34,235 nucleotides of DNA from Oscillospiraceae bacterium (GTDB lineage: Bacteria; Bacillota; Clostridia; Oscillospirales; Acutalibacteraceae). Position 1 is the stretch's first letter, and every line of letters begins with the position of its first letter. Location of the stretch: positions 1-34,235 of the forward strand of contig JAITNG010000016.1 in the NCBI GenBank assembly GCA_031290595.1. Direction: 5' to 3'. Below the pieces are notes generated by a model that made no database searches, was not told the DNA's origin, and saw only the letters and a list, made by a program, of their open reading frames with translations. Both the position numbers and the translations under genes were made by a program. This document shows positions 3,986 to 34,235 of the stretch, piece after piece.

Positions 3986-4173
3986 CTAATACTGTTCCGC
4001 TTTAAAAAGCAATGCATTATCACAGGCACCTGGACACGGCACGCCGTGTCCCTACAAACCGGGATGAAACGCCAACGCACCTCTGATTTTTTATGCACCC
4101 TTGTAGGGACACGGCGTGCCGTGTCCAGGCACATAAAAATGAAGCACTGCTTTTGATCAAGGAATAGTATTAG
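3986..4173. repeat. MITE-like palindromic element (copy 1), about 188 bp
   Basis: Imperfect termini CTAATACTGTTCC / GGAATAGTATTAG plus internal perfect 29-bp inverted repeat CCTGGACACGGCACGCCGTGTCCCTACAA (4029-4057) / complement (4101-4129). Confidence 0.8.
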
Positions 4174-28884: not shown

Positions 28885-28941
28885 CGATGTGCATCTGTAT
28901 TTTTATGCGCCTTTGTAGGGACACGGCGTGCCGTGTCCAGG
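28885..28941. repeat. Half copy (A) of the palindromic element
   Basis: GATGTGCATCTGTATTTTTATGCGCC followed by TTGTAGGGACACGGCGTGCCGTGTCCAGG (28913-28941). Confidence 0.85.
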
Positions 28942-28980
28942 CGCCTACAACGAAGCATTGCCGCCGTGGCCATTATTAAA

Positions 28981-29007
28981 ATTGCGTTGAATAGCATTCA
29001 ACGCAAT
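28981..29007. repeat. Hairpin ATTGCGTTGAAT-AGC-ATTCAACGCAAT
   Basis: 12-bp perfect arms with 3-nt centre. Confidence 0.85.
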
Positions 29008-29060
29008 CCTCATCAAACGCCCGGCCACACGCCGCCACCATAGGGCACCGCCATAACGCA

Positions 29061-29162
29061 CCTGGACACGGCACGCCGTGTCCCTACAAACCGGGATAAA
29101 ACGCCCAATGTGCATCTGCATTTTCATGCGCCTTTGTAGGGACACGGCGTGCCGTGTCCAGG
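29061..29162. repeat. MITE-like palindromic element core (copy 2; units B and C)
   Basis: Same 29-bp inverted repeats as 4029-4129 (29061-29089 and 29134-29162), with conserved ACCGGGATRAAACGCC next to the left arm. Confidence 0.85.
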
Positions 29163-29193: not shown

Positions 29194-30582
29194 TCACACT
29201 TCCAGATTTAGCCACAAAGCAGGGCGCACGCCGCCAGAGCTGTCGTTTACATCGTCGCCATTGAGGCGGACATTGCCACCATAGCTGACACCCGCGGCAC
29301 CGTCAGGAGTGTCGCCGGGCGACCGAAGCCACCACCAGGACTGTTCTCCCTTTAAATCGCTGCAAACTCGTGCTTTGTTATAGTCATCGTCAATCCACAA
29401 GAAATCCCCATTGCTATTAAGTGGCTTCTCATCCCATTTACTTGGCTTTCCTTCGCCAAAATATTTCCGCACCGCGCTCAGGCTCAACAAAAACACCTTG
29501 TCATCAGTGGGTTCACCGCCCTTTGTATTGAAAGGCGTCTTTTCATTAACCCCATATGTATTGTTGAAATTTTTGTTGTGGGCGACTAGGATGCGCTTCT
29601 GATCCTCTCCTGAAAAGCCATTGTAAAACGCGCCGTTCAGGTATTTCCGCAGGGTGCATTCTTCCCAGGTTGTCGCCGTGAGGCTATTATTGTAGGCTCT
29701 TTGCTCAATGACGTTTTTGGCGAGCAGCAGGGCTTTGCCTTCCTCCACCGCCAACACGCTCCAATCGTAGTCGCCAAAGCGGAAATCTTGCCCTTTTGTC
29801 AGCGTTAGCTTTGGCTTTGGGGCTACAATTGGCGCTGCAACGTGCCGCTCCATTGCGGCAATTTGCTCACGCAGGGCAGTGATCTCACCTTCCAGCGCCT
29901 GTTTTTCCGCAAGCAATTGCGCACAAGTTTTGTCCCTGTCCCCCAGCGTTTGTTTTGCCTTGGTTAGCGAAACATTTAAGCCGTCACGTTCATGCAGCAG
30001 TTCAGTGCGCTGTTGCTCAAGTTTTCGCAAACTGTCGTTTGCCTTGGCAAGTTCCTGCGCAATAGCTGAATCTGTGGGCAGTTCAGATGCTCTGACCCAA
30101 CTGGCATCAGGCCGTTGTTCGTTTTCAACAGCCTTGTTGAGCGCGTTTATGATCTTCAGCACCAGTTTGCCTACGTCTGGCCAAAAGGCTGCCACGCAAT
30201 TGTTTGTCGCTCTTTTTCTGAACGCCCTAAGTTTTTCTGCATTTTCCGGGTCATTATAATATGTATCATTTTTTGACGGAAACACCAGCACGCGTTTCTT
30301 CCCCAATTTTTCACATGCATAATCATATTCTTTTTCTGTGTAGCTCTTGCCGTCTGGCGCGGGTGAACCGTACCGCCCTGCGATAATAACGATATAGTAA
30401 TCAGAAACATCGATGTATTTTTTGATGCACTCAAACTGCTCGTCCCCGTCAGCGACAAAGGCTTCCATGCTGACCGGGAAGAACTTCCCGGCTTCCAGCA
30501 AAGCATTTATCACTTGCAGCCGTTCTTCCTTTAAATCTTCATAGGTTGAGCTAATGAACACCTGATACCGTTTTTCCCCCAT
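29194..30582 (-). CDS. DUF4062 - coiled coil - DUF6273 fusion protein
   Basis: N-terminal YQVFISSTYEDLKEERLQV...IVIIAGRYGS (DUF4062); coiled coil ELAKANDSLRKLEQQRTELLHERDG...; C-terminal WWLRSPG...GGVRPALWLNLE (DUF6273-like). Confidence 0.88.
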   Translation of the reverse strand: MGEKRYQVFISSTYEDLKEERLQVINALLEAGKFFPVSMEAFVADGDEQFECIKKYIDVSDYYIVIIAGRYGSPAPDGKSYTEKEYDYACEKLGKKRVLVFPSKNDTYYNDPENAEKLRAFRKRATNNCVAAFWPDVGKLVLKIINALNKAVENEQRPDASWVRASELPTDSAIAQELAKANDSLRKLEQQRTELLHERDGLNVSLTKAKQTLGDRDKTCAQLLAEKQALEGEITALREQIAAMERHVAAPIVAPKPKLTLTKGQDFRFGDYDWSVLAVEEGKALLLAKNVIEQRAYNNSLTATTWEECTLRKYLNGAFYNGFSGEDQKRILVAHNKNFNNTYGVNEKTPFNTKGGEPTDDKVFLLSLSAVRKYFGEGKPSKWDEKPLNSNGDFLWIDDDYNKARVCSDLKGEQSWWWLRSPGDTPDGAAGVSYGGNVRLNGDDVNDSSGGVRPALWLNLEV

Positions 30583-30619
30583 TTGGCTACCTCCTCAGCA
30601 TAAATCCCTTTCACACAAC

Positions 30620-30738: not shown

Positions 30739-30814
30739 CCGGGTGTGGCGCAGTTGGTAGCGCGCTTGACTGGGGGTCAAGAGGCCGTGAGTTCAAGTCT
30801 CGCCACTCGGACCA
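30739..30814 (+). tRNA. tRNA-Pro (anticodon GGG)
   Basis: Acceptor CCGGGTG/CACTCGG, anticodon loop CTGGGGG in stem CTTGA/TCAAG, T-arm GTGAG-TTCAAGT-CTCGC, encoded CCA. Confidence 0.95.
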
Positions 30815-30820
30815 AACAGC

Positions 30821-30875
30821 GCAAAGGAAGCGGGCAAGTCCTTGAGTATCAAGGCTTGTCCGCTTCCTGCTTTGC
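30821..30875. repeat. Long imperfect inverted repeat just after tRNA-Pro
   Basis: GCAAAGGAAGCGGGCAAGTCCTTGA-GTA-TCAAGGCTTGTCCGCTTCCTGCTTTGC, about 23 pairs with two small bulges. Confidence 0.85.
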
Positions 30876-30996
30876 CAGAGAGGACAACCAAGAAAGCCCC
30901 AAAGGACAAGAAACCAACGCTTGACTTTTCCCGATTTTTCGCGGGGTTAAACGTCTATTTACCTCACGCCTTAAATATCTATGGAGAAGAAAGGGC

Positions 30997-31977
30997 GTGA
31001 AAGGCATGGTGCAAACAAGACGAAAACTCACAATTCAACCCAAGGGCGGGATAACGCTGGAAGAGGGCTTTGAGCAGTTTTGCCAGAGCAAGGCGGTGAT
31101 GAACGCGGCGGACGACACCATCAAGCACTACCGCAACGTGTTTCGCTATTTTTTGGAGTTCTACGGCGCGGGGCGGCTGTGTTCGGAGGTACGGGATCAG
31201 ACCATCATTGAATATTTGGCGCATATTCGCCAGACCAAGCCCGACCTTGCGAGCAAGACGGTGAACACCTACACCAAGGGGCTACGGGCGATTTTCTATT
31301 ACATGATGAAAAATGGCTGGATGAGCGAGTTCAAAATCACCCTCCCCCGCGTGGACGAGACCATCAAGGAGACCTACACGGATTTTGAGGTGCAACAGCT
31401 CATCAAAAAGCCCGACACGAAGGGGTGCAGCTTCGCCGAGTTCCGCAACTGGGCGATGGTGTGCTATTTTCTCGCCACAGGCAACCGCCTTAGCACCGTG
31501 CGCAACCTGAAAATCAGCGACATTGATTTTGCCGCCGACGAGATTTTAATCAGGAAAACCAAGAACCGCAAGCAACAAATTATCCCCATGAGCAGCGAAT
31601 TAAAGGCGGTGCTGCGCGAATATTTGACCTATCGCAAGGGCGAGCCTGATGATTGCCTGTTCTGCAACGCCTACGGCGACCCACTCAGCAAGGACGGTAT
31701 GGAGGGCTGCATTATCCGCTATAACCATGGGCGCGGCGTTACCAAGACCTCTATTCATCTGTTTCGGCACACGTTCGCCAAGAATTGGATTATGGGCGGC
31801 GGCGATATTTTTCGCTTGCAGAAGATTTTAGGGCATAGCACCCTCGACATGGTGAAGAACTATGTGGCGATTTTCGGCGGCGATTTGAAGCGGGACTATG
31901 ACCGCTTTAGCGCGTTAGACCAAGCCAGAGCCACCAGCGAAGAGCGGCGGGGGCAGTCCATTAAGATGAGGAAGTAA
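30997..31977 (+). CDS. Tyrosine recombinase/integrase
   Basis: SAM-like N-terminal domain; catalytic TGNRLSTVRNL, HLFRHTFA, LGHSTLDMVKNYV. Confidence 0.95.
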   Translation: MKGMVQTRRKLTIQPKGGITLEEGFEQFCQSKAVMNAADDTIKHYRNVFRYFLEFYGAGRLCSEVRDQTIIEYLAHIRQTKPDLASKTVNTYTKGLRAIFYYMMKNGWMSEFKITLPRVDETIKETYTDFEVQQLIKKPDTKGCSFAEFRNWAMVCYFLATGNRLSTVRNLKISDIDFAADEILIRKTKNRKQQIIPMSSELKAVLREYLTYRKGEPDDCLFCNAYGDPLSKDGMEGCIIRYNHGRGVTKTSIHLFRHTFAKNWIMGGGDIFRLQKILGHSTLDMVKNYVAIFGGDLKRDYDRFSALDQARATSEERRGQSIKMRK

Positions 31978-32002
31978 GCGGGGCAATCCAAAAAATTGGG
32001 GG

Positions 32003-32032
32003 TTGACAAAGGTTAGCCCCCTCCTCTATTAT
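32003..32032 (+). promoter_or_regulatory. Promoter TTGACA-N18-TATTAT
   Basis: -35 32003-32008, -10 32027-32032, upstream of the DUF6291-like gene. Confidence 0.6.
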
Positions 32033-32203
32033 CTTTTTGCGCAAATGCGCCAACCCTTTTCGGCAAAATGGGGGTTGTAAAAAGCATAAGCACGGTACAT
32101 AATCGGAGCTAATCCTTTTATGTTCGTGGTGGCAAGATGGAAACATTTTGCCAAATATGTGTTTATGCACATCTTGCCCCGACGAATATAAAGGGATTTT
32201 TTT

Positions 32204-32947
32204 ATGGCGCAACCGCACAAAAACAGCTTTGTTCTTTACGCCGACCTATTGGATAAATTGGAGCGGCTGACAAACGAGCAAATTGGCATGGTGTTCAAGG
32301 CGATTTTGGAGTTCGAGAACGGCTTAGAGCCTGTGATTGCCGACCCTTTAGCGCAACTTTCTTTTGATTTTATCAAACCCGACCTCATCAAAAACAATGA
32401 GAAATATCAGGAAGCCGTGAAACGCAGCCGTGAAAATGGCGCGAAAGGCGGCAGACCCCGCAAAGAAAACCCACAAAACCCAGCAGGTTTTAATGAAACC
32501 AAACAGGATAATCAAAAATCCAGCGGGTTAAATCAAAACCCAGAAAAACATGATAATGATAATGGCAATGAGAATGATAGAAAAAATATAACCGCTGGCG
32601 CGGTTGCTGATTTTTATGACAAGTTCAAGCCCCCCAAAACGCTCTCCCCTGTGCGGCAATGGCAGACAGAGGCGGCGCGGCTAGCCGATTATTTCAAGCT
32701 GGATTTGGACGTGACATTTACAAAACCCAAGAGCCATAAGGCTTACAAGATTGCAGACAGCTGGTATCGCCTCTTTCGCGATGGCGGTGATTTGGTCGTT
32801 GGTCGGCTTGAAACGGCCTACAGCTATTTTGCTGACCAAGAACGATTTTTGGCGCTCCCAGACGCTACAAAATGGGGCTATTTGCGCGATATAGCGCACA
32901 ATGGGCTGGCGAAGTTCAAACAAAAGGGCGTTTATAATGCAACATAA
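32204..32947 (+). CDS. DUF6291-like protein, putative replication protein
   Basis: KNSFVLYADLLDKLERLTNEQIGMVFKAILEFENG...RSRENGAKGGRPRK; polar linker; separate C-terminal helical domain. Confidence 0.7.
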   Translation: MAQPHKNSFVLYADLLDKLERLTNEQIGMVFKAILEFENGLEPVIADPLAQLSFDFIKPDLIKNNEKYQEAVKRSRENGAKGGRPRKENPQNPAGFNETKQDNQKSSGLNQNPEKHDNDNGNENDRKNITAGAVADFYDKFKPPKTLSPVRQWQTEAARLADYFKLDLDVTFTKPKSHKAYKIADSWYRLFRDGGDLVVGRLETAYSYFADQERFLALPDATKWGYLRDIAHNGLAKFKQKGVYNAT

Positions 32948-32955
32948 ACTACAAC

Positions 32956-32978
32956 TTCTATTAGAACTTCTAATAGAA
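32956..32978. promoter_or_regulatory. Tandem palindromes TTCTATTAGAA-C-TTCTAATAGAA (candidate partition site/operator)
   Basis: Two 11-bp palindromes on a 12-bp period upstream of the parA-like -10 (TATAAT 32993-32998); additional half-sites TAGAA 32979-32983 and TAGAACTT 33010-33017. Confidence 0.6.
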
Positions 32979-33037
32979 TAGAAAATATGTTATATAATCC
33001 AATAAAAAATAGAACTTAAAATATAGCAGAAACTGCA

Positions 33038-33811
33038 ATGACAAATATAACAGGCTTTATATCAGGGCGTGGCGGGGCGAGCAAATCGACCAGCAGTCAA
33101 GCCCTGCACACATGGCTCAACACCCACAACCACAAGGCTTTGCTGATCGATTTTGACCAACAGGGCAACACCAGTTACACTTACGGGTTGGAAGTGAGCA
33201 ACCTGCCAACCATGTATCATGTGTTCAACAATGATATTGACATAAAAAATGCGATCAATCATACGCGAAACGGCGATATTATCAACGGAAACGCCAGCTT
33301 AAATAAGATTGAGGCACTTTATAACGCTGATAACTACCTTGAGGGTGTGCCGAAACTGCGAGAAAAATTGCACGAAGCGGGGGAGAATTACTCCCATATC
33401 ATCATTGACACCGCGCCCAAAATCCAAGGCATGATGGCAACGCAAGTTTTGGTGGCAAGCACCTCAATTGTTGTGCCGATTAGTCCTGATATTTACAGTA
33501 TTCAAGGGCTGGCGCGGATTAGCCAGGTGATTGCGCCCATCAAAGCGGGCTACAACCCAGACCTGCGCATTGACGGCGTGTTGCTCACGAAATATAACGA
33601 TAGATTGGTGTTAAACGCCAGCCTCAAACAGGCGGTGGAGCAATGGGCGGCGCAAAACGACACGCGGATTTATGCCAAGCCAATCCGCGAAAGCGTGGCC
33701 GTGCGTGAAGCGCAAGCCAAGCGCGATAGCCTGTGGGATTATGCGTCAGAAAGCAATCCGTCCCTTGACTATCAAGCATTTATTGCTGAATATCTGGAAA
33801 GGAACGCATGA
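33038..33811 (+). CDS. ParA family ATPase with atypical Walker A
   Basis: ISGRGGASKSTSSQALHTWLN, LLIDFDQQGNTSYTYGL, HIIIDTAP, VPISPDIYSIQGL. Confidence 0.88.
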   Translation: MTNITGFISGRGGASKSTSSQALHTWLNTHNHKALLIDFDQQGNTSYTYGLEVSNLPTMYHVFNNDIDIKNAINHTRNGDIINGNASLNKIEALYNADNYLEGVPKLREKLHEAGENYSHIIIDTAPKIQGMMATQVLVASTSIVVPISPDIYSIQGLARISQVIAPIKAGYNPDLRIDGVLLTKYNDRLVLNASLKQAVEQWAAQNDTRIYAKPIRESVAVREAQAKRDSLWDYASESNPSLDYQAFIAEYLERNA

Positions 33812-34083
33812 AAAAAGATTTTAGTCTAGACACGATGGACGCGTTGACACTGCCGCCGCCCGCTTTGCCTAAAACAACCCAAACCGCCGCCCTTGCCTGC
33901 AAAAAAGAACCGTTTGGGGTCATGGGCAGTCTTGTTTTCGCCACTAAAAGCGCAAGACGCACCATCAGCATTTATTTGCGCGAAAGCACGATTTTGCAGT
34001 TGGAACAAGCGGCAAAAAACAGGGGCGTGAGCAGAAGTGAAATGTTAGAGGCGTTGTTGGATAAAGTGTTGTTTGAGGGTTAA
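33808..34083 (+). CDS. Ribbon-helix-helix protein, putative ParA partner
   Basis: C-terminal RRTISIYLRESTILQLEQAAKNRGVSRSEMLEALLDKVL; ATGA overlap with the parA-like stop. Confidence 0.8.
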   Translation: MKKDFSLDTMDALTLPPPALPKTTQTAALACKKEPFGVMGSLVFATKSARRTISIYLRESTILQLEQAAKNRGVSRSEMLEALLDKVLFEG

Positions 34084-34235
34084 GGCGCAAGCCAATAAAA
34101 AAGCCCCCCTCCAACGCGGCAAGTTGTAAAATAAATTGCCCAAGGAAAACCAAAAGGGGTTCCAAAACGGAACGCAACCAGTTAAACTTTAAGTGAAGAG
34201 CAAAAAGAGACTGGAGTGAACCGAAATGGAACAAG

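Follow-up and report, generated by a model that had tools for sequence, protein, structure and literature searches.

A DUF4062-coiled coil-DUF6273 protein with a DGR-type variable C-terminus: a candidate single-gene sensor/effector of an Oscillospiraceae bacterium

What might a protein do that carries a DUF4062 head on a long coiled coil and ends in a DUF6273 domain, and what could such a protein recognize? The question is raised by one gene in a stretch of 34,235 nucleotides from an Oscillospiraceae bacterium (assembly GCA_031290595.1, contig JAITNG010000016.1), here called the window, in which a reading of the bare sequence had proposed a single-gene sensor/effector system of this architecture. 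The architecture itself is as that reading described it. The open reading frame at 29194-30582 on the minus strand begins with ATG and encodes 462 amino acids, Pfam places DUF4062 and DUF6273 at its two ends with matches far above the cut-offs for both, and a helix is predicted between them at residues 171-248. The AlphaFold2 model of the protein is confident in the alpha/beta head (pLDDT ~90) and poor in the C-terminal domain. It also still holds that no function has been described for the combination, and our literature search returned no paper joining DUF4062 with "diversity-generating," the term that will prove central here. The features of the gene and its flanks are as follows.

28919..29159, no strand assigned: palindrome GGACACGGCRYGCCGTGTCC, three copies in the 3' flank of the gene (sequence)
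29194..30582, minus strand: whole gene, DUF4062 - coiled coil - DUF6273, 462 aa (ORF, Pfam)
29200..29340, minus strand: 3'-terminal DGR-type variable region (first and second positions variable in ~15 NNY codons)
29206..29742, minus strand: putative DUF6273 sensor domain, residues 281-459 (Pfam PF19789, E 1e-27)
29839..30072, minus strand: predicted coiled-coil stalk, a single continuous helix, residues 171-248 (AlphaFold2 model; coiled-coil-type Pfam/NCBIfam matches)
30316..30564, minus strand: DUF4062 TIR-like domain, residues 7-89 (Pfam PF13271, E 1.3e-26; genome search, 96.9 bits)
30334..30336, minus strand: E83, predicted catalytic glutamate, TEKEYDYA motif (KpSwz alignment, DUF4062 family alignment)
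30589..30596, minus strand: Shine-Dalgarno GAGGAGGT (sequence)

The gene had been credited with its own ribosome-binding site and its own promoter. The former is present as the Shine-Dalgarno sequence GAGGAGGT, 6 bases upstream of the ATG. The latter found no support, as a sigma-70 scan gave no minus-strand site directly upstream, where a TATACT-like -10 is visible without a good -35.

That DUF4062 is a TIR-like module, as had been supposed, is now backed by homology to KpSwz, by TIR-type structural matches and by a 2026 preprint on a DUF4062 NADase. In a phmmer search against the PDB, KpSwz (10wc) matches both head and stalk (residues 3-189, E 2.3e-32), and the best Foldseek matches of the full model include TIR-STING (9lmq), plant and animal TIRs, SPARTA and SEFIR, in a list that is also mixed with flavodoxin-like folds. 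E83 aligns with the glutamate of the KpSwz TEK motif at chain index 82, which would be E97 with residue 16 as the first of the chain, and the DUF4062 family alignment has E83, K84, E85, D87, Y88, and A89 nearly invariant. DUF4062 proteins hydrolyze NAD+ in anti-phage defense, and KpSwz itself requires E97 and is activated when its AUX domain binds the phage portal, leading to abortive infection (Swarozyc preprint, bioRxiv 2026, PMC13174449). By analogy, the head is presumably an NADase, and a single-gene sensor/effector system is plausible because KpSwz works in this way.

The partner domain of this head is unusual. In a survey of DUF4062 relatives across bacteria (80 loci), those whose C-terminus could be read end for the most part in an HTH/winged-like tail, and in none of them is it DUF6273. 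The fusion was found in the window gene and in the congener G005, where the contig breaks off within the DUF6273 part of the gene; none beyond that congener appeared in 80 genome-collection loci, 398 family genomes or 394 order genomes, a count to be read as a lower bound because the searches score few candidates per genome. TIR-like heads, as judged from their sequences, are fused to DUF6273 in several genera of the order (L245, L246, L248, L255, L257, L344).

For DUF6273, a lectin-like fold had been suggested. Published models of phage DUF6273 proteins favor it, but our own low-confidence model (pLDDT 64) lends no support, its sole PDB match being a DUF6273-bearing IgA peptidase. In phages, DUF6273 is a binding domain diversified by diversity-generating retroelements (DGRs) and C-type-lectin-like by DALI (tentaclins, PMC10743442; Faecalibacterium phages, PMC11792537). 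A tblastn search of our DUF6273 domain against annotated phages gave no match. The domain is also present in secreted and surface proteins, and for this reason DUF6273 alone does not imply immunity; within the order it is found in secreted, zinc-ribbon, and kinase-like proteins.

What the sequence-only reading did not contain is that the protein ends in a variable region of DGR type common to other effector genes, and this changes what the protein is. The last ~140 bp of the gene form a hypervariable block that also ends two sister genes of the same genome, all three having unrelated heads: a TIR_2 head on contig C76 (1.6e-17) and, on contig C23, a P-loop NTPase head that has the GKGKT motif without a Pfam NTPase match. 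The window gene has no NTPase domain. The block spans TCC-TGG-TGG-TGG to the last codons; its constant codons are almost letter-identical across the three genes, while the differences sit in ~15 NNY codons, at the first and second positions and almost never at the third. Upstream of the block, the DUF6273 DNA of the three genes is 51-65% identical, as against 93-95% in those block columns that are not template adenines. Synonymous differences affect 4% of the same-amino-acid codons of the trio, and position-3 differences 5% of the changed codons; the same two measures give 28 and 46% for the DUF6273 copies of genome G084, and 47 and 47% for other DUF6273 genes compared pairwise. In the congener G005 the blocks are likewise alike within the genome, with synonymous choices of their own, which points to template copying in each lineage. 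Genome G084 has ~17 DUF6273 copies, many near contig ends (L092, L093, L193-L204); considered as a DGR repertoire in its own right, it was rejected on a failed codon-position test and the absence of an RT.

A template of the expected kind exists in another genome of the family, G333, where a single locus (L271 = G333:C11, 8919-13498) is a complete DGR with RT, template repeat, and target. The block occurs there twice, 715 bp apart. The first copy is the end of a YobI-ATPase/Tmn-DUF6273 gene (YobI-ATPase 8.6e-67, PADLOC Tmn 7.4e-27, plus DUF6273), and the second is an asparagine-rich non-target, after which comes an RT carrying the DGR motif GLPLGNQTSQ. Between variable region and template, 14 of 27 template adenines are changed and none of 91 other bases (p 3.8e-11; here and below, the Fisher tests treat columns as independent), so that the target is a Tmn-like defense protein with a hypermutated end. 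The same adenines mark the variable positions of our own genome: 19 of the 27 are variable columns in the trio, as against 7 of the 91 remaining positions (p 2e-10), and in the G005 trio the figures are 24/27 and 9/91. The window copy (contig C54) differs from the G333 template at 13/27 adenines and at 11/91 other positions, and most of these 11 are common to the sister copies; that the non-adenine differences are mostly identical in the three genes is as expected if their template has diverged. Moreover, the block of G269, of the same genus as G333, matches the template version of our own genome, so the cassette has moved between genera.

In database searches the G333 RT scores best with DGR RTs from gut phages (phage nd12, Faecalibacterium phages), and the targets of phage nd12 carry DUF6273. 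RTs related to that of G333 were found in 30 of the 398 family genomes, and an adenine-bias scan, with the TR/VR pair of phage FP_Mushu and 13 further family DGR loci as positive controls, found template/variable pairs in 14 fetched family loci. A search of viral contigs for the template by its N-rich pattern returned none. One phage contig encodes a stand-alone DUF6273 protein of 203 amino acids adjoining a ParA-like gene (L180:5142-5753), with a variable block whose constant codons are similar to those of the host block; phage and host may have exchanged the cassette. Several other candidates were set aside. Two phage records with a similar block (L258, L259) have RTs with QGTxxSP motifs that are not of DGR type, the RTs of two genus relatives (G009, G010) are 600-650 aa, of QGxxxSP type, and were read as group II introns, and that of G011 is a fragment only. 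Locus L274 of G162 ends in an asparagine-rich stretch, but most of its differences from the template lie at bases other than adenine, and it was left out.

Could such a block have arisen without any retroelement, through gene conversion between paralogues and diversifying selection on exposed loops? DUF6273 loops are, after all, variable in all members, including those of RT-less genomes such as G084. We nevertheless regard this as very improbable, given that position 3 of the variable codons is near-frozen in the own trio, at a level far from that of the G084 paralogues, and that the variation falls on adenine positions of a genuine, independent DGR template. More weight attaches to the question of whether the end of the window gene is still being rewritten. 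A PF00078 search of the own assembly found no RT, the block used as a DNA query found no template repeat there, and 14 genomes of the genus yielded no DGR RT. The assembly is a draft, 91% complete and in 210 contigs, and mobile elements and repeats are often lost from draft bins; it is possible that RT and template were missed through assembly or binning. Three explanations offer themselves: the draft bins dropped the DGR, a mobile element carries it and it works from there, or it has disappeared and left the gene as a relic of earlier diversification.

According to the last of these possibilities, the end of the gene was written by a DGR at some earlier time, or in a donor, after which transfer spread the gene; the sensor of today would be an ordinary one, fixed in the germline. 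The lack of an RT and template in the own assembly, and of a DGR RT in the genus, would suit this account, as would the match of G269, another genus, to the own template version, which indicates a cassette that moves between genera. So would the 3' end of the window copy. A TGCGYC-CGCA-GRCGCA hairpin with a compensatory change lies just 3' of the block in C76, C23, and G005 C55; it is absent from the window copy, where GGACACGGCRYGCCGTGTCC palindromes stand instead, and owing to this loss the window copy may no longer be a homing target. Against a fixed repertoire, the constant codons of the own trio are almost without synonymous divergence, indicating that homing was recent relative to the age of the genes, and contigs C22 and C78 of the own assembly end inside the same 3' block, from which it follows that further copies exist beyond those assembled. 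On balance we find a fixed sensor rather doubtful, and tentatively suppose that a DGR may still act on the window copy. Somewhat more tentatively than the diversified end itself, it may be that one DGR, perhaps a mobile one, works in trans on several unlinked abortive-infection genes with differing heads (DUF4062, TIR, STAND-like, Tmn). If true, a trans-acting DGR would amount to a fast-changing repertoire of immune receptors with interchangeable effectors.

The position of the gene bears on its likely role. It had been placed between palindromic repeats and a tRNA-Pro integration site; the repeats on its 3' side and the nearby tRNA are there, but the gene flanks the integration site on the chromosomal side and does not lie inside an element. 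Just downstream of it, the perfect 20-bp palindrome GGACACGGCRYGCCGTGTCC occurs at 28919, 29064, and 29140, where none is expected, and two further copies at 4032 and 4107 bring the total in the window to five. Similar sequence is also found near the contig ends of C22 and C78 in the same genome, as a dispersed repeat. Upstream of the gene stands tRNA-Pro(GGG) at 30739-30814, followed by a tyrosine recombinase at 30997-31977; from 30739 to 34235 the window holds the tRNA, the recombinase, a DUF6291 protein and a ParA-like ATPase before the contig ends. The recombinase, DUF6291, and ParA-like genes on this side are probably the start of an integrated element, and the gene lies outside it, since the integrase is on the far side of the tRNA. 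The other side of the gene is occupied by greA and lysS, and the defense-island setting in which such a system might be sought is accordingly not found in the neighborhood examined.

Taken as a whole, we think it probable that the protein is a DUF4062 effector of NADase type (Swarozyc-kind), acting in abortive infection through a DGR-diversified sensor, and that it is one of several heads on a single variable cassette. By analogy it would sense phage and bring about suicide of the cell. In the resting state, the coiled coil would hold the TIR-like heads inactive in a stalk-linked assembly, with the C-terminal DUF6273 as the surface that recognizes a cue of infection, most probably a protein of the phage. 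Binding of the cue by the variable face would rearrange the heads through the coiled coil, and the rearranged heads would hydrolyze NAD+ and so stop the infected cell. The surface would have been written by an error-prone RT that copies the template repeat and randomizes its adenines, the cDNA then taking the place of the gene's 3' end. A single template of the lineage may have served several effector heads (DUF4062, TIR, and P-loop NTPase, with a Tmn/YobI NTPase in a relative), and the shared variable cassette would yield a repertoire of receptors.

The same protein might instead be a signaling or regulatory TIR-like protein that answers to a metabolite, a competitor, or a host factor, and has no part in anti-phage defense. 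The housekeeping neighborhood is in keeping with this, as are the DUF6273-bearing IgA peptidase and the order's secreted, zinc-ribbon, and kinase-like proteins with this domain. We consider a non-phage ligand unlikely all the same, because DUF4062 homologs with other sensors defend against phage through NAD+ depletion, and heads carried on the same variable block are of defense types (TIR, Tmn).

How, then, does the abortive-infection effector that we favor compare with known systems? With Swarozyc (KpSwz, PMC13174449) it shares a homologous TIR-like head and stalk, the same active-site glutamate, and a single-gene layout. KpSwz, however, senses the portal by an HTH/winged AUX domain, whereas the window protein has DUF6273 with a DGR-type region instead; lacking the defining portal-binding domain, it is not Swarozyc proper. 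In the DGR-diversified STAND and ternary conflict systems (Dore et al., 2024, PMC10907252; Kaur et al., 2020, PMC7159879), an immune-type protein likewise has a C-terminus rewritten by a DGR: these are NTPase/TIR proteins with a C-terminal CLec, proposed as antigen sensors. They involve clade 5 DGRs, an FGE-type CLec and mostly multicellular bacteria, in contrast to the DUF6273 domain, the DUF4062 head, the dispersed and unlinked targets sharing one block, and the RT nearest to gut-phage DGR RTs that are found here. Phage DGR targets establish DUF6273 as a proven DGR variable domain (PMC10743442, PMC11792537), although they are virion or receptor-binding proteins, while in the window gene the domain is fused to an immune-type effector head. 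Tmn (YobI-like NTPase) defense is represented by the NTPase of the G333 DGR target, a sister architecture with a variable C-terminal DUF6273. DGR-diversified immune sensors have thus been proposed before, mostly in multi-component systems of multicellular bacteria, and their authors describe them as not yet tested (Dore et al., 2024, PMC10907252). The idea of such a sensor is known; what is new is the head, the CLec family, the RT lineage, and the several unlinked targets that share a block. In this case the sensor is part of a small effector encoded by one gene, and for relatives of that effector an assay, a structure, and a known trigger class are at hand; retroelement hypermutation of bacterial immune receptors becomes testable with one gene. 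If our reading is true, Swarozyc heads accept different sensors, and a single variable cassette serves several death effectors.
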